A stretch of DNA of 64,000 nucleotides from Aurantiochytrium sp. KH105 (lineage: Eukaryota > Sar > Bigyra > Thraustochytrida > Thraustochytriidae), in NCBI GenBank assembly GCA_003116975.1, contig BGKB01000023.1, forward strand, positions 540,714 through 604,713, in the 5' to 3' direction. The translations under genes were made by a program, and so were the position numbers. Below the pieces are notes generated by a model. The model ran no database searches and was not told the DNA's origin. It worked only from the letters and a program-made list of their open reading frames with translations. Below are positions 28,264-63,182 of the stretch, piece after piece; the first letter of the stretch is position 1, and the number at the start of each line of letters is the position of its first letter.

Positions 28264-28515
28264 CGAAACATTGTTTTGTCCTCTTGCAGCGTGTTCCGTT
28301 TTTTTTTTGGCAAATTATTAGATAGGCCTATCACAAATGGATGGTGAGGATGAAATGCGAGTTTTCACGTTCAAGAGCGAGCTCGTGAGCGAGCGAACGA
28401 GCGTGTTCATTCGCAGAATAGTTTCTCTCTTTCTATAAATGGATGTAACTCAAAATAAAAATGTCAGGTGTCATGTGTATTGTGCGAAAACGAGTTCAAC
28501 AATTGCCGAGCCTTA
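28264..28515. other. Convergent spacer with GATAGGCCTATC palindrome
   Basis: It contains the perfect 12-bp palindrome GATAGGCCTATC (28321-28332) between the ends of two convergent genes, and AAAATAAAAATG near 28452. Confidence 0.6.
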
Positions 28516-35053: not shown

Positions 35054-36594
35054 CGCCACGTTCTCTTGTCCGCACGCACACCGGGAGTTTGTTGTTGGTC
35101 GATGGCAGTGGCGCGTCTGACAAACCTTGAATCAACGGTTTTACCTAACTTGGGCCTTTTGGAGGCAATCTTTTCACCCCTTTTTGTCGAGTCTGTTTTC
35201 TGCCCTTGTGTTGCCACGGTGCCAGTGAAGTGCGTGCCTTGCGTTTGTTTTTGCGACGCTTGCTCGCCGGCACGGGCAAAAACAAAGCTAGCAACGATTT
35301 TCGGAGAGGAGACTCTGGTCCATTGCGGCATAGTCTTTGAGTAGCGGGAGCGGTGTTGCCTACATCAAGTTGGGCTGAAAGCGCCAACTCAAGTGCGAAG
35401 TGAATCGAGAGGAAGGAATATACGTACTACTACTACCACCCCTTGCGTCGTCTGTGTACGAATAAATGTGCACTAGTCTTATTCCTTTGAGACCTGAAAC
35501 CTAGAGCGTTCTCGTTTCTCTCGACATCTGATTTACACAAGTACCAGCGAATGGAAATGGATGATATTGTGAGATGCAAGCTCGTACGTGTACGGCTCGT
35601 GAAGGGATTTTCTATCAGGGGACTAATCTGAACTCTTTGCAAGAGCCAAATTGACAGTGGCGCGATATTTGCGAATGAAAGCGCAATACTGTAAAGACGT
35701 GAGAGTCCTGTGAGCTGAAAGGCGGTGCAGTGAAGGACGAGTTCCAGCAAAGATCGCTTGGCTACGGTAAGGAAGATTGCATGTGTCCGTCGTGTGCTTC
35801 CCGTTTTGTTGTATTTGATCGAAGTTTATCCTATAGGTCGCTTTGACGCCACAGAAAGGGCGGACGCACGTGGACGAAGAGGGTGGAAATGGTGAGAATG
35901 GCGAGAATGGGCGCACGCCCATCACATTGCGGCCCGGCATTCTTGGCTGCAACCCCTCTAAGAAACACGCGCGTCTTTGTAAGGCAATGATCGGCCCCGT
36001 CGCGGCATGCATTGCAATCGCGCCGGCTTTTCGAGTAGAGGCATACCTACGCCTGCGACGTAAGACGCGCCGTCTACTATACCATTGCTCTAACCAACTG
36101 ACTTTGCTTTGCTTTATTCAACGACTTTTGCTTTTTCCGATTGGGAGCGACGATTTTTTAGTGGTTGTGCTGTGAGAGTCCGAGTGGTATGCAAGGCATT
36201 TGTGTATTGTGAAAAACTTAGTGAATTTGTGGTTCCCAGTCGCGCGATAAAAAGCAACAGTAGGGCCTCGTAGGAGATTGTCCTAGACCGTGTGTGGTGT
36301 GCATTTTTTAAGAGTTTACTTTCACAGGCCGGATTGTCAACAAATCGGCCCGCGAGTACCCCAGGTACCCCCCGCTGATTTACCTCACCCTTAGGCCCTA
36401 CCTATTCAGATTCCTAGCATCTCCTCAGGATCTCTGGTCATTGAATGGAAGACCGCCGCAGACACGTTCGCGAAGTCTGTATTAGGCGATTATGGCAGAA
36501 ACCAAGACAAGGTAAGGCAAACCCATTTCTTGTGCAAAGCGAGATCAGGCAAAGCACAAAAGGCGCGGAGCGCTGACACGCTCGATTTAAAACC
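35054..36594. other. 1.5-kb spacer upstream of LCB2
   Basis: No supported gene. It contains a tRNA D-arm-like stretch on the minus strand (about 36077-36105), TAGGGCCT near 36260 and TAGGCCCTA at 36392-36400. Open frames are short and unlike any family. Confidence 0.5.
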
Positions 36595-38094
36595 ATGGGA
36601 AAAGGCGGAGGGCGAGAGCTGCCGCATGATGCCGAGGACCAGAGCATCTTTACGGCAATCACCACATATCTGGGTATCGCCGTGATCTTCTTTTTTGGCC
36701 GCTTGCGCGACAAGTTCGGCACGATCACAGGGCGATCCCGTTTCCGAGACGAGTTGCTCCCGAAGCACGCCAATGAGGCTCCGCTTCTCGATCCATATGG
36801 AGCTGCTTTTTATGCACGCCGCATCAAATTCCGCGTGCAGGACTGTTTTTTCCGGCCTGTTCGGGGGCGTCCGGGCACCTATATCGACGTCATGAAGCAG
36901 ACCATTGACGAAGATGGTATACGCTTGAAGACAACGGGCGAAGCGCAAGCTTGCCTCAATCTCGGTTCTTACAATTATTTGGGTTTCGCAGATGATTGGG
37001 ATGCAACGTGCGGAGAGTGTGTGCATGGTGCTTTGCGCAAGTATGGTCCAGCCTCGTGCTCGGCGCAGAGCGACGCCGGGACCATGGATGTGCACCGAAA
37101 GCTGGAGCAGGTTGTCGCCGACTTTGTGGGCAAGCCTGCAGCGGTCATCTTTAGTATGGGTTACAACACAAATCAGCTTGTGCTGCCAGCGATTGCCAAC
37201 GCCGGCTCGCTGATCATCAGCGACAAGCTGAATCACGTTTCCATTGTCAATGGGTGTCGTGCTTCGGGCGCCAAGGTCATTGCATTTAAGCACAATAATG
37301 TGGATGATCTTGAGCGCACCGTGCGCAAAGCCATCATCGGGGGACGAGGTAAGGCCGACGAGCCGTACCAGCCCTGGAACAAGATCATCATTGCGGTCGA
37401 GGGCATCTACAGTATGGAGGGCGAGATTTGTGATTTGCGTGCCATTGTGGATGTGGCGAAAAAGTACAAGTGCTATACTTATGTGGATGAAGCGCACTCG
37501 ATTGGTGCTCTCGGCAAGACGGGCCGCGGCGTCTGCGAGCACACGGGTGTGAGTCCCGATGAGGTTGACATTCTCATGAAAACGTTTTCCAAAAGTTTCA
37601 ACGGCACGGGCGGCTACATTGCCGGGTCTCGCGAGCTGATTGATCATTTGCGCAGCAGGTGCGCTGGTATGCTCTACTCGTCGAGCTTGTCGCCGGTGGT
37701 GGCCGAGCAAGTGCTGACTGCTTTTCGCATCATTTCGGGCGAGGATGGCACGGATATTGGGCGCGAGCGTCTGCAGGCGATTAAAGACAATGTAAACTAC
37801 TTTCGTGCCGGTTTGAAGGAGATCGGATGCTCTGTTCTCGGGGATGACGACTCGCCCATCATACCTGTGATGCTTTTCAACTACCCCAAGATCAGTGCCT
37901 TTTCGCGCGAGGCTCTTGCGCGCGGCATCGCCGTGGTTGTGGTGGGTGCGCCTATCGTGCCTTTGTACGGGAGTCGCGTGCGTTTCTGCGTCTCTGCGGC
38001 GCACACGCGCGAGGACCTTTCGATTGCGCTCGCCGAGATCGCTGAGATTGCCCAGGACTTGCGCATTCGCTACACGCGCTCGGCCTTTGGCTAG
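36595..38094 (+). CDS. LCB2: Serine palmitoyltransferase subunit 2 (LCB2/SPTLC2)
   Basis: 499 residues, ATG at 36595. A short N-terminal membrane segment (FTAITTYLGIAVIFFFG) precedes an alpha-oxoamine synthase fold. Family motifs are clear: CLNLGSYNYLGFA, SAQSDAGTMDVHRKLE, EGIYSMEGEICDL, YVDEAHSIGALGKTGRG, and the PLP-lysine site TFSKSFNGTGGYIAG with Lys333 as the Schiff-base residue. Having this lysine makes it the catalytic LCB2-type subunit; LCB1 lacks it. The enzyme condenses L-serine with palmitoyl-CoA to 3-ketosphinganine in the ER membrane, the first step of sphingolipid synthesis. The length fits the family. A 543-codon antisense frame over this gene is a shadow. Confidence 0.95.
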   Translation: MGKGGGRELPHDAEDQSIFTAITTYLGIAVIFFFGRLRDKFGTITGRSRFRDELLPKHANEAPLLDPYGAAFYARRIKFRVQDCFFRPVRGRPGTYIDVMKQTIDEDGIRLKTTGEAQACLNLGSYNYLGFADDWDATCGECVHGALRKYGPASCSAQSDAGTMDVHRKLEQVVADFVGKPAAVIFSMGYNTNQLVLPAIANAGSLIISDKLNHVSIVNGCRASGAKVIAFKHNNVDDLERTVRKAIIGGRGKADEPYQPWNKIIIAVEGIYSMEGEICDLRAIVDVAKKYKCYTYVDEAHSIGALGKTGRGVCEHTGVSPDEVDILMKTFSKSFNGTGGYIAGSRELIDHLRSRCAGMLYSSSLSPVVAEQVLTAFRIISGEDGTDIGRERLQAIKDNVNYFRAGLKEIGCSVLGDDDSPIIPVMLFNYPKISAFSREALARGIAVVVVGAPIVPLYGSRVRFCVSAAHTREDLSIALAEIAEIAQDLRIRYTRSAFG

Positions 38095-38827
38095 CGTTTG
38101 CTGGGTACTTTGGCAAGGCAAAAGTCACTAACTGTAAAGTGACTCTTTGAGCCTGCCTGTATAACACGAAAATGAAAGAATTCTGCTCTTGGTAATCTGG
38201 CTGCTGGCATCGCTGCGTTGCAGCTCTTTGTATTATTCATCCCCCAAGCTGCAGCTCTTTGCGAGTTTTCCGTGGCGCTGGCACAAGTTGTCGCGTTCCG
38301 CGTCGCCCTTGCTTGCGAAGAAGAAAGACTCCGTCCAGCCTCGGTCCCGTGGAAGACTCCCACCCAGGCTCGCCTTCCTTCCTCCTCTCGCCTGCGGTGC
38401 GAGGCGGGCGTTGGCGGAGCAAAAGCGTTGCAGCGCCCGCCCGCTGCCGCCCGTCTGCGCTGCGCGCACGAGCCTGGACCTCGCCGGGGCTCTGCGCTCT
38501 CCGCGCCCGCGTTCGCGCCGTTCGTCCCCGCCCTTCGCGCCGCGCGTGCGCGTCTCTTCCCGCCCGGTCCACAGCCAGCCAGCTGCAGCTGCGCCTGGCC
38601 CGGCTTCCCCGCCCTCGAGATGCGGCCGCTCTCTCGCTTTCTCTCCCTCTCTTTGTCCGCCGCAAATCGGCGCGGCGCGGCGCGGGAGGGACGGGGAGAT
38701 GAGACGAGACGAGGGGACCGCGCCGGGCCGAGGCGGCGGCACACGGCGGCGGCCGAGGCGACCTCGTCGCCATTCGCCGCGCCGCGGGGCGGTCGGCGGA
38801 GGCAGGCAGGGCTGACGGTGCGCGCAG

Positions 38828-38859
<32 letters not shown>

Positions 38860-39023
38860 AGAGAGAGTGCCATGCTACGAGGCCTGCCTGCGATTGCTTG
38901 CCTTCGCTGTAGTAGTATGGCGCTTTCTTTGCAAGTTGGGAAGGAGGGAACGAAATGGAAGCAGGGCGGGGGCGGTCGGTTATTTCCCGTGCCGCTCTCG
39001 TTCGTTTCGTTTCTCCGCTCGTC

Positions 39024-39080
39024 CGTTCGTTCGTTCGTTCGTCCGTTCGATCGATCGATCGACCGATCGACCGATCGACG
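39024..39080. repeat. Compound GTTC/GATC/CGAC repeat
   Basis: GTTC units pass into GATC units and then GACC/GATC units. The GATC part is self-complementary. Confidence 0.85.
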
Positions 39081-40520
39081 GATGGACCGATGCGCCTCCC
39101 TTTTCTCCTCCGCCTCCACCATCACGGTACGGCACGGCACGGCGCGGCGCAGGATGAGATGTCACAGCGCATGGCGTTGACGCGGAAGCCCTGACCTGCG
39201 CTGCGCTTTGCACCGCCACCGCGCACTTTGAATCCGCCTCTCTCCGTGGCTGTTTGCCCGATTTGCGACCTCCCTCCATACGGCCAGACTGCAGGTGTGA
39301 AAAGAGCCCGATTGTGACCGCGTGAAGACAGGCTCCACCCGAGTAACTCACTGGCCGGCCACAAAGGCTGCTGCTGCTGCTGCTGACTGCATCTGGTCAG
39401 CCGGCTTCGAGACCTGCCGCGCCAAAGAGCGTCGCCGCCACCGGCCACCGGCCGTGCGGAGCGCCCTGCGCCCGGCCCCGCCTCGCATCCATCGCCTCGC
39501 GCTCTTGTGCTTACTGTTAGTCATAATCGTGTCTCAATACGTATGTCCGTCTGTCTGCCCCTGTGGCTGCTGCCATAGTGTAGTAGCATAACATAACAAG
39601 AAGGAAGGAAAGCCCGAGGCTGGTCCCGCGACGAGCCCGCGCGCCCGTCTGCGGGGGGCGGCTGCGGGCGGCTGCGGCTCTGTCCTCGCACCTGGCCCCC
39701 GCAGCCGGATCCGAGCAGTGCAAGATACGGCCGTATGCGCCTGCGCCTCTGCGTACGCTCCCGCGGGAGGAGGCCGTGGCGAGGATGGGGAGCTCCGCCG
39801 CCCGCGCGTTACTGTTTCACTATGGTAGTATAGTATCATGGTACTAGTCTGGGCGCAGGCACAACTTATACCAACCGTGGCATGGCTTTCTTGCGGGGAG
39901 GGAAGAATGAATGAATGATCAATCGATTGAATGACGCGAAGGAACGAAGGGAGGGAGGAAGCTCGGGAGGAAAGAACGCGCCGCAACCGAAGCGACGCAG
40001 ATGCTCGGCACGGGCTCGGACCCGGAGCGGCACCAGCGCAGCGGATCCCCTCCTCCTCCTGCTCCTCCTCCTCGCGCACGTGGCGGACCGCCTGCGCTGC
40101 GCTGCGCTGTTTTATTTCCCTCCCTCCCTCGCTCGCGACAACGCGCCGCGGCGACGGACAGGACAGCCTGCGCGCTGCCCTGCGCTGCGCTGCATCTGCA
40201 CCAGCCAGCAGCAAGCCTGGCTTCGGCCTCGGCGCGTCCCAGGTCCGGGGGCACGCCACTGGGACAGTCGCAGGCGGCAGCTGGCGGCGGTCACCCAGCC
40301 CGGCCCGGCCCAGCCCAGCCAGCCTGGCTGACGAGCTCACGGTCCTCGCCCCGGTCACGTCATTGCATGTCCTGCCCTCAACGCGAGCCAGACAGGCACG
40401 GCAAGGCACGGATAGGCAAGAAGCAGAGTGGGCAATTCAAGGCAAGGCAGCGCACACAAGTTGAACTCGAAAGGGGAGGGAAGGAGGAACTCTCTACAGC
40501 TTACCCTACCTTTCCTTTCT

Positions 40521-42218: not shown

Positions 42219-42392
42219 GGCCCAGTCCCTCCCTCCGCCCTCGCGCCGCTGTCCGCCGCGCGCCGCCCAAGCGTGCCGGAACGGGGCTGCGCGCCCCGTG
42301 GGCCTGGCTCGCCTGCCTGGCGAGCTGGAACTTGGCCTTATCTCATTTCACCCCACTCCATTTCACTGAGCGGTATCATACGGGCAGGAGGT

Positions 42393-42838
42393 ATGTCTGT
42401 CTGTATGTATCGAGCGAGCGAGCGGACTCGACTCGACCCCACTCGGCCTGGAGAGAGAGCGACACCGCTCGAGCGCCCTGCCGCTCGATTCCTCCCCCCC
42501 TCTCCCTCCCTCCGAGCGCCGCTCAGACTCGCTGTCGCGACCTCGCTCCGGCCGACCCGCGTCGCGCCGCCGCTGCGGATCCGCTCTGGACTGCTCGGGA
42601 GGGAGGGAGAGAGGGAGGAAAGGAGAACGAGTCCAGTCTGGTCACTGATTACAGTCCATCGTCGAGCCACTCTTTTATTATGGTGTGATAGAGAGAATGA
42701 AGAGGTCCAGGGCGCAACAGCGGGCGGGCAGCAAAACCCAAACGCAGACGGAGACCTGGCCGACGAGGAAAAAGCAAAGGCAAGGGCCACGTGCTTTGCT
42801 CCGCTCGACAGGAGACGAGACCACAAAGAAGAAATTAG

Positions 42839-42901
<63 letters not shown>

Positions 42902-44117
42902 CGAGGTGGAGAAAATGATCACCAACACAGCAGGTATGCGCAACGCCATTGCGGAATGGTCGGGCACCGTCGGCGTGGAGACGAGCCAGGCCCATGTGAA
43001 CAATGCGCCGAGGAAAAAGAAAATGAACGCCAGACCTCCCGCGCCATGCAAGAACGCGGCGCGCGCACGTGCAGAGAAAGCAAGGCTTGCCGTAAAAGAG
43101 TGGTCCGGCACCGTCGGCGTCGCCAGCTCCAGCGACAACGCAAATGACGTGCCATCCAAAACCAACACGTACGCGGAACACAAGTCCGTCATTCGTCGCA
43201 AAGGCTCTCTTCTGGGCAATGCAAGGAGCGCGAGACTCGCTTTGGCAGAATGGTCCGGCGTGGTCGGCATCGGCGACGACGAGGACGAACTCGACGTTGA
43301 CATTCCCAAGACGTGCAGGAGTAGTGGCTATAGCACCAGCAGCATTAGCACTATCTCTAGCGTGAGCTCATGCGGATCCAGCGACGCGAGCACCATCGAT
43401 GACTTTGTATACACCACATCCACGCAAAGACCACCCGTCAACAAACATACCAGCACCAAATCGTCTGGCCCCATGCGCAATGTTCGTCTTGCCTTCGCAG
43501 AGTGGTCCGACACCGTCGGTGTTGGCATGGCGGAAGACAATGACGATGACAACGATGCGGCTGCTGCTGCTCCTGCTGCTCACAAGGCAACAAAAGCAAA
43601 ATCACCCTCGCGCTCAAAGAGTTTGCGTCTTGCTCTCGCCGAGTGGTCTGGGACCGTCCGCGTGTCCTTGGACACGGACGAAGAACAGCACGAGACTTCC
43701 GAAACGCGAACGTCAGATACTGGATCGTCACAAACGACATCCAGACCAGAAATTCGCAAGACAAAGTCGGCTCGTGCCAAGCTCGTGCGCGGAGTCAGCC
43801 GGAAGATGTCCAATCTGCGCCATGGACGCTCTTTGAGCCATAAAAAACAGCAACAGCCGCAGCGGAACCTGACCATATCGACCGCATCCACTTTTGACAA
43901 TAGCCAATTTTCGCTTCATCAGCAACCAGAGCCTACTTCGTGCCCAGTGCGCGACGAAGAGTTCTGCCTGCAAGAACAAGCAGAAACAACAGCAGCAGCA
44001 GCAGAAGAAGAAGACACCTCTGCTTGGGACTTTGGCAGCAGCGACGATGAGGAGGAAGATGACAATGATGACGATGACGACGACGCTCATTCTTTTGCCG
44101 CCATCGCCCCGTGCTAA
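42393..44117 (+). CDS. Unrecognised protein with five EWSG motifs and poly-Gln
   Basis: 574 residues if the ATG at 42393 is used. The next in-frame ATG is 42915, after the poly-Gln run, and a spliced start is possible. The N-terminal part is Arg/Pro-rich and doubtful. From about 42690 the sequence looks coding: acidic, then 20 Gln coded by (CAG)n at 42840-42901. Five copies of a motif with consensus RLALAEWSGTVGV follow, starting near 42938, 43076, 43229, 43481 and 43622 and separated by disordered linkers of about 35-70 residues rich in Ser, Thr, Asp and Lys. The tail is basic, then Gln-rich, then very acidic (Asp run). I know no family with this motif. The regular recurrence of an otherwise conserved 13-mer in disordered sequence suggests repeated docking sites. 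Confidence 0.7.
42840..42901. repeat. (CAG)n repeat coding poly-Gln
   Basis: Twenty uninterrupted CAG codons, in frame with the EWSG-motif protein. Confidence 0.9.
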
Positions 44118-54251: not shown

Positions 54252-57200
54252 TTAGTTTTTGGGGGTCTCGGCAGCAGCATCAGATGGCGCAGGGCGAGAC
54301 TTTCGCGCGAGCTCGCGCCGTTTTACGATTGCATCATTGTGCCACTGTGACCAGCACGTATCGACCTGGTTCACCGACGAACGGCGTTGCACATGAAGCA
54401 CAACGTTGCAAAACTTGCACGCAATTCGGGCATTCGTGCCGCAGACGACGCAAAAGCGCGTATCCTTGAGCGTGTGCTGTCGATGTGCATTCGAGGAGAG
54501 GCGCAGACGCTTGCATTCATGCGTATTCGCGATCTTTATCACGTTGCGTTTTCCCGTAGGGAGACGCAGTGCTTCGTGTTCCTCCGCAGAGAGCCAATTC
54601 GGACCCTGCGCAACGTCATCGCCTCCTTCGGCAAAGGCAAGAGACGGCGCAGCAAAGGCATTGTCCACGCTAGGCTGCTCGTGGGATTGTACCCCGTTCT
54701 TCCCCCAGGGAGGCGGCTCGCGCGATAGCGTTCGATTCGTGTGCCATTGCGCCCAGCACGTATCTTCTTGCTGCACTGAAGATCTTCGCTGCACGTGGAG
54801 GACAACATTGCAGAACTCGCATGAAATTCGAGCATTCTTACCACAGACGACGCAGTTGCGCGTTCCTTTGAGTGTCTGTTGTCTGTGAGCATTGCATGAC
54901 AGACGCAATCGCCTGCACTCAATCGTGTTTGCAAGTTTGAAAACGCCTCGTTTGCCCGTGGGAATACGCAAAATCTGATGTTCCTCGGCCGAAAGCAAGC
55001 TCCCCTCGGTGCCATCCGGCATTGCCGACTCAAACGCGGGCCCTTGTAGATCTGGAAGCTGTGGAACGGGGTCCCGAAGGCGGCTTGCATGTGTCATCAA
55101 TCCAAAGGAGACGGCTCGAATGAAGAGCGAAAAGTCTTCGGCGCCTTGCTCTGGCGCAAGCACGCGTTGGACGTCAAGCCATGTTTCTCCGGCACCTCGC
55201 TTTCTGATAAACTTTCGCATACGCCATGCAAGAAATGCGTTGATCACAACGTCGCTAAAGATTCCGAGAACCGATGCCTGTCTTTCGCCAAGCTTGAGTT
55301 GACGGAGATCGAGACGATCTGCGTAGTCGGCATACACATGCGCGCCACGCGACGAAGCAGCAAACTTGAATTGCACGAGAGCGCTTGCGCGCCGCACAGG
55401 CATCGCAACCCCATTCGTGGCGCGCTGTTTGTGAAACGCGTTCCAAAGGGGTAAGTTTGACGCGATCATCTCCTGGCTCGCACTACCAAAAGCGCTGGGC
55501 ATTGATGCTGGGTCAGCTGCTCCTGGATCTTGCGCGTATGCCCAATCGACCAAACTTCGACCAATGTCCTCGACCGCCGAGTTCCACGTGTCGCGAACCT
55601 TTTGTGGAAACAATACAAGCACCATGTAGGCGCAGGTTCCGCGCGCAGATTGCGCGTAAAATACGCCATGTGTTGTGCCATAAACGACTGCCTGGTGCAA
55701 GAGCTCGCTTCGATGTCGAAGTGGGACAACCTCGAACCAAGTTGTCGATCCGGCGACGCACGAAAAGTATGTGCCATACTTTTCGGCCACAAAGGTAGAC
55801 TTGTCATGAGTTACCCGTGGGCCAATTCGAAGGGGCGCAAGAACCCGCATTTCTTGCGCCGCATTGCCAGGCACTTGTACCACAACAACACCGTCAGCAC
55901 TTGTACCTATGAACGGTCGATCCTCAATACGCACCAGACCAACCGCAAAGACTGCCGCAACCCAATCCTGGCCACGGAGCTGCTCCAGGGTGCTTGGCGC
56001 AAGACTTGTGGGGGAGGCCTGGTACGAGGCTCCGTTGGACTCGAACCAGATTCGACAAAGTTGACTCTCCAAAGCATCTTTCGCCTGTTCAGCGACCTTG
56101 CTTGGGTTGCGGAACACAAGACGACGACATTCGGCAGAGCGCTTGGCGATGGCCACAGCGGCGCGATCGTTAATCAGGAGCATATTAAAGACGTACCAAT
56201 CTGCAGAGTATTTGCCGGCCGATAGGGGAAAGACTCCCATGTCTGCCAAGGCACGTTCTATGTCATTCTTTGACGGAATATCCACGTCCCGAATTCGGTG
56301 CATCGGTAACACATCAGCCCTGTCGGTATCCTCGCGCAAGCTATTCTCGACTTCAAGCTCGCTGCTTGCAAAGGACTCGGAGGCTGACTTGTCAATGTCT
56401 TCATGGTCATCGTCGTCATTCTCGTCGCCTAAACTATCCTGTCTTGCGGCTCCGCCGTTTTTGGCAGTTTCTTTGGCATTGAGAAGCAGACTTATTTCGT
56501 GGTCAAGGTCTTGCAATTCGCTTTGCTCAGGGTAAAAGAGCCAACTTTCTGTGAGCGCATCGGGTGCTCTGCGCAGAGGCTCAAGCACAAAGGTGTTTTG
56601 AAAACGCTTCCATGCATCAGCATCATTTAATGTAAGGAAGCGACTTAAGCGAGCGCGAGAATGGCTCGTCGGTTGGCGTACAGCAAAAGCGTGCATAACT
56701 TGTGGGTCCGCCACGTCTTCCACTTGAACTAATGTTTTGGCAGACAAAATCTGACTCCCAAAGAATGAACTGTCTGCAACGACAAAAGCGGAGTTCGCGC
56801 CGTCACGTGCGTCTCCTTCCGCGCGCTCTACGAGGGAAAATGGGCATGACCCGGACGTTGCATCGGTTTTCTGTGAGACAACAAGAGAGAGTCCGAGTCG
56901 TGCGCATTCAGAAAAGAAGCTGGCGTACAAAGGCTCGTGATCAAGACACAGTTCGACGCCGGCGAGATCCCCACCCGCGACATTCTTTGCGCGTTCGAGC
57001 ACGTGCATCAGCCCGTCGCTGTCACCCTGTTGATCTTGCGTGCTCAGACCACTGGCGAGCTTGAGGCCAAGAAGAGCGTCAACGCTTGTCATGCACTTTG
57101 TAGCGTCTGCACCGTTCTGCGTTGGAGCATTGTGAAAGGGACACGTTGACACGTGTCTGTCCTCGAAACCAATACGAAGATGGTTGTCGACAACGAGGGA

Positions 57201-57854
57201 CATGGTTTGGTCTAATGCAGCAATTTCGAGCGAGTCAAGACCTTCTACCTGGTGATCCTCATCGAATTCGGGATCAGAGCTTGCGTGCGCTGACGTGCTC
57301 GAGCTAAGATGATCCCGAAGCTCGTCAAACCGGGCTGGATCAAGAATGGCATCTATGGGGAAGATTTGGGTGTTGGCCATTTCTGCCCGCATGGCTTGTG
57401 GTGCGGCCTCCTTTGGGTATCTCGTGCACCCTGCAATGTAAAGCGCCTGTCCGAGAAAGGCGTGAAGCTCCCAATCTGTGATGAGATGCGACTTGTCCAT
57501 GCTCTCTTTCATGGCTGACATGAGTATACGCAGCGCACTTGATCCGAGAAAGGCCAGGTATGCGTCTGCCTCGGCGGTTTTGTCAACACCAAGCCTTCTC
57601 TGCAGAGCTGGAATGGCATCAAGTTTACACATGACCTTGTCGAGATGCCTTTGCGCAGCCCCATTCAGATCACAGATCTCGAGGGCTTCATGAGGGGATA
57701 CGAGTATAGGAGGTTGTTTTTCCAAAAAACTCCACGTCTCTGGGGAATTGCTGCCCATTCCAGCTGATTTTTCGCCCTCTCGCGGCAGTGGTGGAGGCGG
57801 CGGGGGCGGCGGGGCCTCGGGGTCCTGCTGCGACGTTGACGACGAGGACGACAT
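54252..57854 (-). CDS. YqaJ-exonuclease-like protein with twin transposase-type zinc ribbons
   Basis: 1,200 residues, ATG at 57854. The N-terminus is Ser/Pro-rich with a poly-Pro run. Residues 60-470 have no recognised family. The middle (about 540-830) resembles a YqaJ/lambda-exonuclease-type domain: VGLVRIEDRPFIGTSADGVV matches the SPDG motif, and HRSELLHQAVVYGTTHGVFY matches the later Gln helix. The expected ExK residues are not obvious (MRVLAPLRIG), so activity is doubtful. Residues 953-1037 and 1087-1171 are two copies of an 85-residue module, 67 of 85 positions identical, each with C-x2-C-x7-C-x2-C-x4-H-x12-C-x4-H. This resembles the C-terminal zinc ribbon of piggyBac-type transposases. 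It is probably a transposon-derived gene, intact and possibly domesticated. It is divergent from the 2OG-oxygenase gene. Confidence 0.7.
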   Translation of the reverse strand: MSSSSSTSQQDPEAPPPPPPPPLPREGEKSAGMGSNSPETWSFLEKQPPILVSPHEALEICDLNGAAQRHLDKVMCKLDAIPALQRRLGVDKTAEADAYLAFLGSSALRILMSAMKESMDKSHLITDWELHAFLGQALYIAGCTRYPKEAAPQAMRAEMANTQIFPIDAILDPARFDELRDHLSSSTSAHASSDPEFDEDHQVEGLDSLEIAALDQTMSLVVDNHLRIGFEDRHVSTCPFHNAPTQNGADATKCMTSVDALLGLKLASGLSTQDQQGDSDGLMHVLERAKNVAGGDLAGVELCLDHEPLYASFFSECARLGLSLVVSQKTDATSGSCPFSLVERAEGDARDGANSAFVVADSSFFGSQILSAKTLVQVEDVADPQVMHAFAVRQPTSHSRARLSRFLTLNDADAWKRFQNTFVLEPLRRAPDALTESWLFYPEQSELQDLDHEISLLLNAKETAKNGGAARQDSLGDENDDDDHEDIDKSASESFASSELEVENSLREDTDRADVLPMHRIRDVDIPSKNDIERALADMGVFPLSAGKYSADWYVFNMLLINDRAAVAIAKRSAECRRLVFRNPSKVAEQAKDALESQLCRIWFESNGASYQASPTSLAPSTLEQLRGQDWVAAVFAVGLVRIEDRPFIGTSADGVVVVQVPGNAAQEMRVLAPLRIGPRVTHDKSTFVAEKYGTYFSCVAGSTTWFEVVPLRHRSELLHQAVVYGTTHGVFYAQSARGTCAYMVLVLFPQKVRDTWNSAVEDIGRSLVDWAYAQDPGAADPASMPSAFGSASQEMIASNLPLWNAFHKQRATNGVAMPVRRASALVQFKFAASSRGAHVYADYADRLDLRQLKLGERQASVLGIFSDVVINAFLAWRMRKFIRKRGAGETWLDVQRVLAPEQGAEDFSLFIRAVSFGLMTHASRLRDPVPQLPDLQGPAFESAMPDGTEGSLLSAEEHQILRIPTGKRGVFKLANTIECRRLRLSCNAHRQQTLKGTRNCVVCGKNARISCEFCNVVLHVQRRSSVQQEDTCWAQWHTNRTLSREPPPWGKNGVQSHEQPSVDNAFAAPSLAFAEGGDDVAQGPNWLSAEEHEALRLPTGKRNVIKIANTHECKRLRLSSNAHRQHTLKDTRFCVVCGTNARIACKFCNVVLHVQRRSSVNQVDTCWSQWHNDAIVKRRELARKSRPAPSDAAAETPKN

Positions 57855-62096: not shown

Positions 62097-63182
62097 TCAT
62101 GCGAGCGTCAAATGCTCACCAGCCTCCTCTCCCTCCACATTCCTTTGTACTCTATAGTTTCGTTCTGGATCGGTGGTCTCGCGAGCGTTGGGCACTCGAC
62201 TATGCCCGCCGTTTACATCGCCGTCATTGTCGTCGTCATCGTTGTCGTCGTCATCACCATTAGCTACTCTGCCGTCGCTTCCGATGGGTCCGCCAATATC
62301 GTCAAAGTCGGACGAAAATCGTCGTCGCCGCAACTTGGCAGCTGCGAGCGCAGACTGACGACGATCGCGAATGGCCTGAAAAATCTTGCGCGAGACGAAG
62401 ACAAAGAGAAGCAATGCCTGCCACCAGCCAACAATAAGGACGACCTGCCAGTCTGTCCCGCAAGCCCAGGTTTCGTAGCACGTCCGCGAAATATTGCCCG
62501 AAACAATTACGGTCTCCGAATCAGGGGCGTAGCATGGCAAGCCGCCATACGCTGGCTCGGGAGACGAGCAATGGCTCGGTCGATATTGCGTGCCATTCCC
62601 GCAGCCTGTGGAGCATTCAGACCAAACGTCCGTGTAGCCGAGGCCGCCATCGACAGGGCCAAAGGCGCCAAGCCGGATGATCAAACCCTGCAGGTCCACA
62701 GACTGACCTTCAATGCCTGAAGATAGTGTGAGGTTTTGGAGCACTGGCATGGGAAGCGTCCAAGTGCAGGTGCCAGCTGATGTGCAAGGCCGGCTGACGG
62801 CGGCCGCATTCTCCGAGGTTGAAGGCCAGACGCTTAATCGCAAATCAAGATTGTTCTGGTCCGTGATCGTTTGAGCGAGCTCAACAGAAACATATTCGAC
62901 AGCAAACACGGTGCCCAGGTCTACGCTCACCTCCTCACCGGACCAAGGCACGCCAGAAGCGCTGACCAACTGGCTTGGCTCGCTCGCGAGGTTTGTATCT
63001 TGGGCTTCGCTGCCACATGCCACGGCAGCTTCGCGACGCTTTGCGGCGGCTTGAAGGCAGTTCTCGTCCACGTCCGCCGCGTCCATGCACTCCATAGATG
63101 GCGCGCAGTAGCTGCAGGAGCGCCCAAGGTTGGCCGCAAAGCAGGCGCAGGCCTCACCATTCCACGTGCTGCATTCTGCCAT
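62097..63182 (-). CDS. Single-pass membrane protein with thrombospondin type 1 repeat
   Basis: 361 residues, ATG at 63182 (MAECSTWNGEACACFAAN). Residues 1-45 are Cys-rich. About 60-180 form a beta-rich extracellular-type region (SVDLGTVFAVEYVSVEL, then WPSTSEN), perhaps a discoidin-like fold. About 183-240 is a TSP1 repeat (YTDVWSECSTGCGNGTQYRP, with further cysteines). One membrane helix follows (VVLIVGWWQALLLFVFV, about 244-265), then a cytosolic tail with a basic patch, an Asp/Asn-rich run and a charged end. The ectodomain needs a signal peptide, but none is present at this ATG, so a 5' exon is probably missing from this single-frame model. TSP1 proteins act in adhesion. Confidence 0.75.
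   Translation of the reverse strand: MAECSTWNGEACACFAANLGRSCSYCAPSMECMDAADVDENCLQAAAKRREAAVACGSEAQDTNLASEPSQLVSASGVPWSGEEVSVDLGTVFAVEYVSVELAQTITDQNNLDLRLSVWPSTSENAAAVSRPCTSAGTCTWTLPMPVLQNLTLSSGIEGQSVDLQGLIIRLGAFGPVDGGLGYTDVWSECSTGCGNGTQYRPSHCSSPEPAYGGLPCYAPDSETVIVSGNISRTCYETWACGTDWQVVLIVGWWQALLLFVFVSRKIFQAIRDRRQSALAAAKLRRRRFSSDFDDIGGPIGSDGRVANGDDDDNDDDDNDGDVNGGHSRVPNARETTDPERNYRVQRNVEGEEAGEHLTLA

Follow-up and report, generated by a model that had tools for sequence, protein, structure and literature searches.

Five copies of a conserved tryptophan motif in a low-complexity protein of Aurantiochytrium sp. KH105

What might a protein built largely of low-complexity sequence do with five copies of one short tryptophan-containing motif? 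The question is raised by an open reading frame in a 64,000-nucleotide stretch of contig BGKB01000023.1 (the window, in whose own numbering positions are given). A first-pass annotation had described five near-identical 13-residue motifs in otherwise disordered sequence, had called the linkers between them completely different and had suggested that the motifs dock repeatedly onto one partner.

The motif array and the protein that carries it

The protein has 400 residues, 78% of which belong to the set AGRQSPEKDNT, with only three Tyr and seven Phe. The features of the locus are as follows, the other haplotype being that described in the next section.

42840–42899, + strand: CAG tract, in the 5′ UTR most likely; 20 units, against 5 on the other haplotype
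42915–44117, + strand: coding sequence, an intronless open frame of 400 residues, low-complexity with five EWS motifs (from translation, haplotype substitutions and dN/dS of 0.13)
42939–42977, + strand: motif 1, residues 9–21, RNAIAEWSGTVGV
43008–43022, + strand: basic cluster PRKKK, residues 32–36 (from translation and inference)
43083–43121, + strand: motif 2, residues 57–69, RLAVKEWSGTVGV
43233–43271, + strand: motif 3, residues 107–119, RLALAEWSGVVGI
43485–43523, + strand: motif 4, residues 191–203, RLAFAEWSDTVGV
43626–43664, + strand: motif 5, residues 238–250, RLALAEWSGTVRV
43764–43847, + strand: basic segment, residues 284–311, KSARAKLVRGVSRKMSNLRHGRSLSHKK (from translation; 0 amino-acid changes between haplotypes)
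44043–44084, + strand: acidic tail, residues 377–390; the other haplotype has one extra residue

Five of the protein's six Trp lie in the motifs; the sixth and last, W371, stands just ahead of the acidic tail. PRKKK resembles a monopartite nuclear import signal, and we take it to be a putative one.

The motifs share the 13-residue consensus R-[LN]-A-[ILVF]-[AK]-E-W-S-[GD]-[TV]-V-[GR]-[VI] and start 48, 50, 84 and 47 residues apart. Six of the 13 positions (R1, A3, E6, W7, S8 and V11) are invariant in all five copies, and position 4 (Phi1) admits only I, V, L or F. Any two copies share on average 75% of their motif residues, but their flanks agree at 11% (15 residues before the motif) and 15% (15 residues after it); control windows drawn randomly from the same protein gave 7% (99th percentile, 14%). 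All five occurrences of the DNA core GARTGGTCNGRNNNNGTN in the window lie inside 42915–44117. Shuffling yielded a mean of 0.01 occurrences, reaching five in 0 of 100 shuffles, and 20,000 shuffled versions of the protein never contained the pattern R.A..EWS..V. The near-identity of the five motifs is thus borne out.

The linkers are less completely different than had been said. Motifs 2–5 are all preceded by basic sequence (net charge of +3 to +5 in 15 residues) and followed by acidic sequence (−1 to −6 in 15 residues), a polarity absent from the N-terminal motif 1 (0 upstream and +3 downstream). Random placement equalled the summed charge contrast of all five motifs in 200 of 20,000 draws, and that of motifs 2–5, a subset picked after the data had been seen, in 32 of 20,000. 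The description of the intervening sequence as disordered has its basis in composition and low-confidence models rather than in a disorder predictor, and low model confidence is no proof of disorder.

The motif had also been read as a half-helix followed by an extended strand. A model of one unit, with the other four supplied as the alignment, has a mean pLDDT of 55.9 and contains a helix (residues 99–113; pLDDT about 55–60) that ends at the motif Trp, which favours this reading at low confidence. The full-length model, from an alignment of two sequences (mean pLDDT 38.7), speaks against it: its single helix, residues 48–57, stops at the opening residue of motif 2, and the other motifs have none. 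On these models the half-helix shape is no more than plausible. A globular repeat domain such as a propeller or solenoid is thought unlikely, since the linkers are of low complexity and neither model folds, a test that shallow alignments weaken.

Divergence between copies and between haplotypes

Comparison of the motif copies with one another gave dN of 0.13–0.39 and dS of 0.46–3.1 in eight of ten pairs, dS being incomputable in the other two; with just 13 codons per copy these values are rough. Residues that are identical between copies are nonetheless encoded differently, with 3 to 7 silent codon differences per 9 or 10 identical residues. Because silent sites between copies approach saturation, the duplication is an old one whose amino acids selection has preserved.

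These data bear on the suggestion that the motifs are left over from a tandem duplication in decay, or that the protein is simply of low complexity and its motif has no specific function. Three of the four spacings are near 48 residues (48, 50 and 47), the linkers are of low complexity and the collections searched, viral or prokaryotic and none of them eukaryotic, yielded no relative. Six residues have nevertheless stayed invariant in five copies while silent sites diverged widely, and dN/dS between haplotypes is 0.13; we regard this explanation as very unlikely. The same two observations bear out the claim that selection acts on the motif.

The haplotype comparison rests on a second copy of the gene, on contig C296, which encodes a protein 97% identical. 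That contig is colinear with window positions 28449–63822 at 91–93% identity, except for 36620–38095, which is present twice on C296. Given this colinearity, the C296 locus is most simply, and most likely, the other haplotype. Many further pattern and family matches in the genome are also paired, and the genome looks diploid, with long open frames. Across 28449–63822 the haplotypes differ by about 7–9% in DNA, with dS mostly near 0.1. For alleles within a single species a DNA divergence of 7–9% is high, and it could perhaps reflect hybrid origin.

Between haplotypes, the 65 motif codons differ by 3 synonymous changes and no nonsynonymous one. In the remaining 185 codons of residues 1–250 the count is 13 synonymous and 3 nonsynonymous, and in residues 251–400 it is 9 synonymous and 8 nonsynonymous, together with two one-residue indels. 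The contrast between residues 1–250 and the tail is suggestive only (Fisher test, p = 0.07). The linkers of residues 1–250 are well conserved too, with nonsynonymous changes in 3 of the 16 codons that differ, so the motifs do not stand out from the haplotype comparison alone. For the whole gene, dN is 0.013 and dS 0.104. The resulting dN/dS of 0.13 is the lowest among the ten of 12 regional ORFs with a computable value, the next being a transporter at 0.15, in a comparison where several of the other ORFs have unverified ends and some overlap, which may inflate their ratios. Haplotype substitutions at codon positions 1, 2 and 3 number 9, 3 and 27, a pattern that favours the + frame; an antisense ORF at 42338–43309 is judged unlikely, as substitutions track the + frame.

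The haplotypes also bear on the start codon. A longer open frame continues upstream of the ATG at 42915 across the CAG tract, but upstream of this common ATG one haplotype reads poly-Q and the other poly-S, and the indels that separate them are not frame-preserving. A poly-Q N terminus is hence judged unlikely. Because the upstream frame is not common to the haplotypes, the tract is probably 5′ UTR and translation starts at 42915 or at the Met codon that follows, 42936; both starts retain motif 1. The tract is in addition a length-variable trinucleotide repeat (20 versus 5 units) directly 5′ of the start codon.

The motif in other sequences and among known signatures

The genome searched comprises 76 Mb in 367 contigs. 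The whole protein found the two gene copies and three weak places (E of 0.19 to 9.5). All eight matches of a 25-residue query fell in the two copies of the gene, at motifs 2–5 only; this query missed motif 1 in both copies, finding eight of ten known places, so a copy equally diverged could be missed. The DNA pattern GARTGGWSNGRNNNNGTNNNNRTN matched 25 places, of which ten are in the gene (five per haplotype) and 15 elsewhere, with 12 for a reversed-pattern control. In the 11 extra places that were translated (L006–L010, L018, L020, L021, L022, L024 and L025), R-x-A is absent at the motif's distance from E-W; the other four (L011, L017, L019 and L023) have matched letters the same as the examined ones or one base off. 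None of these whole-protein, 25-residue and DNA-pattern searches found a further gene with a motif array in the 76 Mb, or another place with a convincing coding match to the motif. As far as searched, the array is at one locus of the genome.

Viral contigs gave 69 and 35 pattern stretches and prokaryote genomes 20, with 0 confirmed by tblastn in the former and 0 confirmed in the latter, in a confirmation step too strict for an isolated short motif. The lack of viral and prokaryotic relatives is expected, the gene being eukaryotic. Searches of Pfam-A returned 0 families for the whole protein at E≤1 and 0 for all five units at E≤10, with filters that drop most matches above 0.1. Among PDB sequences, a motif profile gave three chance-like matches, the best at E of 0.5 over eight residues of a seed protein, and the whole protein gave two, also chance-like, in which its C-terminal part was matched to RAD6-type enzymes (E of 5.6 and 9.9). 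No occurrence of four peptide strings was found in 5.39 million papers, and nothing relevant on disordered or repeat proteins of thraustochytrids or labyrinthulids was among the best 8 of 1,077 papers. The first-pass annotation had named assignment to a known domain by profile search as grounds for refutation; with no Pfam match and no credible PDB sequence match, that did not occur.

Short linear motifs have to be weighed separately. If the motif were a divergent form of a known Trp motif (the W-acidic motif of kinesin light chain, the GW/WG of the AGO hook, LIR or the KWSP of PYCO1), its Trp would be expected in the kind of low-complexity, partly acidic sequence in which it sits. The patterns themselves fit poorly: W-acidic, GW/WG and KWSP match none of the five copies and LIR one. 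The W-acidic pattern has one match in the protein, outside the motifs, which must be W371. The AGO hook is defined by GW/WG dipeptides, and the protein has 0. In W-acidic motifs D or E typically flanks Trp, often with L or M at −2 (PMC5450233). The kinesin-1 motifs of calsyntenin-1 and of SKIP, which has two copies (PMC5450233), are Trp docking motifs of adaptors and share with ours an E before Trp. Our motif has E at −1 in all five copies but differs in having Ser, not D or E, at +1 in all five, with A or K at −2. We consider descent from any of these motifs highly improbable. In a wider set of patterns, none matched more than one of the five copies: LIR, W-acidic, RVxF, GW/WG, SIM, PxIxIT, LxVP, IQ, KEN, D-box, UIM, WH2, LxCxE, 14-3-3, WxxF, cyclin RxL and EPYC1.

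Candidate functions of the array and its surroundings

Similar conservation would be expected for five copies of any functional signal, and one known signature does fit. Class 1d nuclear export signals follow Phi1-x2-Phi2-x3-Phi3-x-Phi4, with C, W, A or T permitted at one position only, in the NESmapper description (PMC4168985). All five copies have this spacing, with Trp at Phi2 (IxxWxxxVxV, VxxWxxxVxV, LxxWxxxVxI, FxxWxxxVxV and LxxWxxxVxV). Hence the earlier claim that the motif has no known signature stands for Pfam and PDB but not for export signals, whose class 1d spacing it fits with Trp at one hydrophobic position. A CRM1-type signal repeated five times could, with the basic import-like cluster, make the protein a shuttling or strongly cytoplasmic one, and Phi1 varies among I, V, L and F alone, as such a signal would have it. 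Class 1d and the motif have in common both this spacing and an expected helix-then-strand shape, the mode of binding that structural workers infer for the class (PMC5358978). Moreover, the 25-residue C-flanks of motifs 3–5 have net charges of −5, −4 and −6, which NESmapper rewards (PMC4168985, in the same description); those of motifs 1 and 2, at +5 and 0, do not follow.

Several features weigh against export. R, E and S are invariant in five of five copies at non-hydrophobic positions, where the export consensus asks for nothing and CRM1 contacts are mostly to hydrophobic anchors (PMC5358978). By the NESmapper description Trp contributes weakly, class 1d is a minor class and the consensus has a high false-positive rate (PMC4168985). 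Export patterns are also not significantly commoner than composition alone would give, with six in the protein, five of them in motifs, against a shuffle mean of 4.46 (P = 0.31), so the class 1d match amounts to a single event in five copies. It would be unusual for a protein to have five export signals. A plain class 1d signal would thus differ from the motif in its invariant R, A, E and S outside the hydrophobic positions, in Trp at Phi2 and in its five copies, and we read the invariant polar residues and the fivefold repetition as arguing against one. Export, which the first-pass annotation had not raised, is the sharpest specific rival to docking, and we think it unlikely; if true, it would make the array an unusually repeated, Trp-type example of a class whose structure PMC5358978 only infers.

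Our preferred reading, to which we give an even chance of being right, is that the protein is a multivalent scaffold whose five 13-residue motifs repeatedly dock one separate partner. A largely unstructured scaffold would hold several molecules of one partner, or one oligomeric partner, by docking motifs set at about 50-residue spacing. In each motif R-L-A-Phi-A-E-W would be a short amphipathic helix with its cap near S-G, T-V-x-V would continue in extended form and the Trp would be the main anchor; the charges around motifs 2–5, basic ahead and acidic behind, could steer binding or let neighbouring units pair. The multivalent docking, the single kind of partner and the helix–strand shape are what we infer. 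The spacings of 48, 50, 84 and 47 fall within the range of 20–120 residues by which disordered linker proteins are sought (PMC11570498); against the docking reading, both models are of low confidence and motif 1 is without charge polarity. If docking is the function, a scaffold at one genomic locus would carry a new short linear motif of the Trp type in repeated form, and a single peptide array plus a point mutation in each copy should suffice to recover the partner.

The closest working example of this layout, and evidence that a short Trp motif repeated along a disordered protein can function so, is PYCO1, the diatom Rubisco linker, a repeat protein with six KWSPR stickers whose Trp is essential for binding and for sticker oligomerisation, and whose motif is given as absent from the diatom's other proteins save a short isoform (PMC10288592). 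Both are low-complexity repeat proteins with Trp-containing stickers and Ser after Trp. PYCO1 differs in its sticker, KWSPRGGS, with Pro and without E-W, in a second sticker, GTGYNP, in prion-like spacers and in its partner, Rubisco; indeed, KWSP matches none of our five copies. The green-algal linkers EPYC1 and CsLinker are disordered, with short helical elements repeated at 20–120-residue spacing, the layout (disorder plus repeated elements 20–120 residues apart) that FLIPPer takes as its criterion (PMC11570498); their hosts are photosynthetic. The likeness to EPYC1 and CsLinker is one of layout, and an EPYC1-like pattern matches 0 of 5 copies. By analogy, then, the protein has the PYCO1/EPYC1 layout with a different sticker sequence, and is not a shown relative. 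A six-frame search of the genome gave no match to the light-harvesting protein family PF00504, which makes Rubisco an unlikely partner.

PYCO1 also lends weight to a partner-free alternative, in which copies of the motif pair across molecules through Trp and opposite flank charges to give a condensate or fibre, since its stickers oligomerise via Trp (PMC10288592, as above). The upstream-basic, downstream-acidic polarity, which random placement of the five motifs reached in 200 of 20,000 draws, is what such pairing would use. The polarity is missing from motif 1, however, the 32 of 20,000 draws for motifs 2–5 rest on a post hoc subset, and the protein has few Tyr and Phe, and we find self-association distinctly unlikely.

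A bolder form of the docking reading, which we hold to be rather unlikely, is that a dedicated disordered linker with five R-L-A-Phi-A-E-W-S-G-T-V-x-V stickers gathers a non-Rubisco oligomeric enzyme or organelle protein into a condensate. This would be an undescribed docking system in a heterotrophic protist, the PYCO1/EPYC1 design having evolved independently outside photosynthesis. The linkers of sticker–spacer design compared here bind Rubisco, and a non-photosynthetic case would make the design more general.

The neighbouring genes encode a membrane transporter of the PF03547 family, a macro-domain protein, a DOPA-dioxygenase-type protein, a 14-3-3 protein, Paf1 and RRP36, and have no common theme; in eukaryotes the order of genes says little about what they do. 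An aminotransferase gene (PF00155; window 36400–38095) is single here and has two adjacent places on C296, 8139–9840 and 10853–13496, with matches of 94% over 36400–38095 and 83% over 36620–39200. The haplotypes may differ in copy number here, or the assembly may be at fault. ORF 54252–57854 (− strand; 1200 residues) is without a Pfam match over the cut-off, its best zinc-finger match being zf-HIT at a sub-threshold E of 0.0064. At its end stand two Cys-rich units, each of roughly 85 residues, that resemble one another (by eye, CVVCGxNARI...CxFCNVVLHVQRR...CWxQWH) with a 72% DNA match, a pair that self-BLASTP does not list. Finally, ORF 62097–63182 (− strand) carries a thrombospondin type 1 domain (PF00090, E of 5.8e-07).
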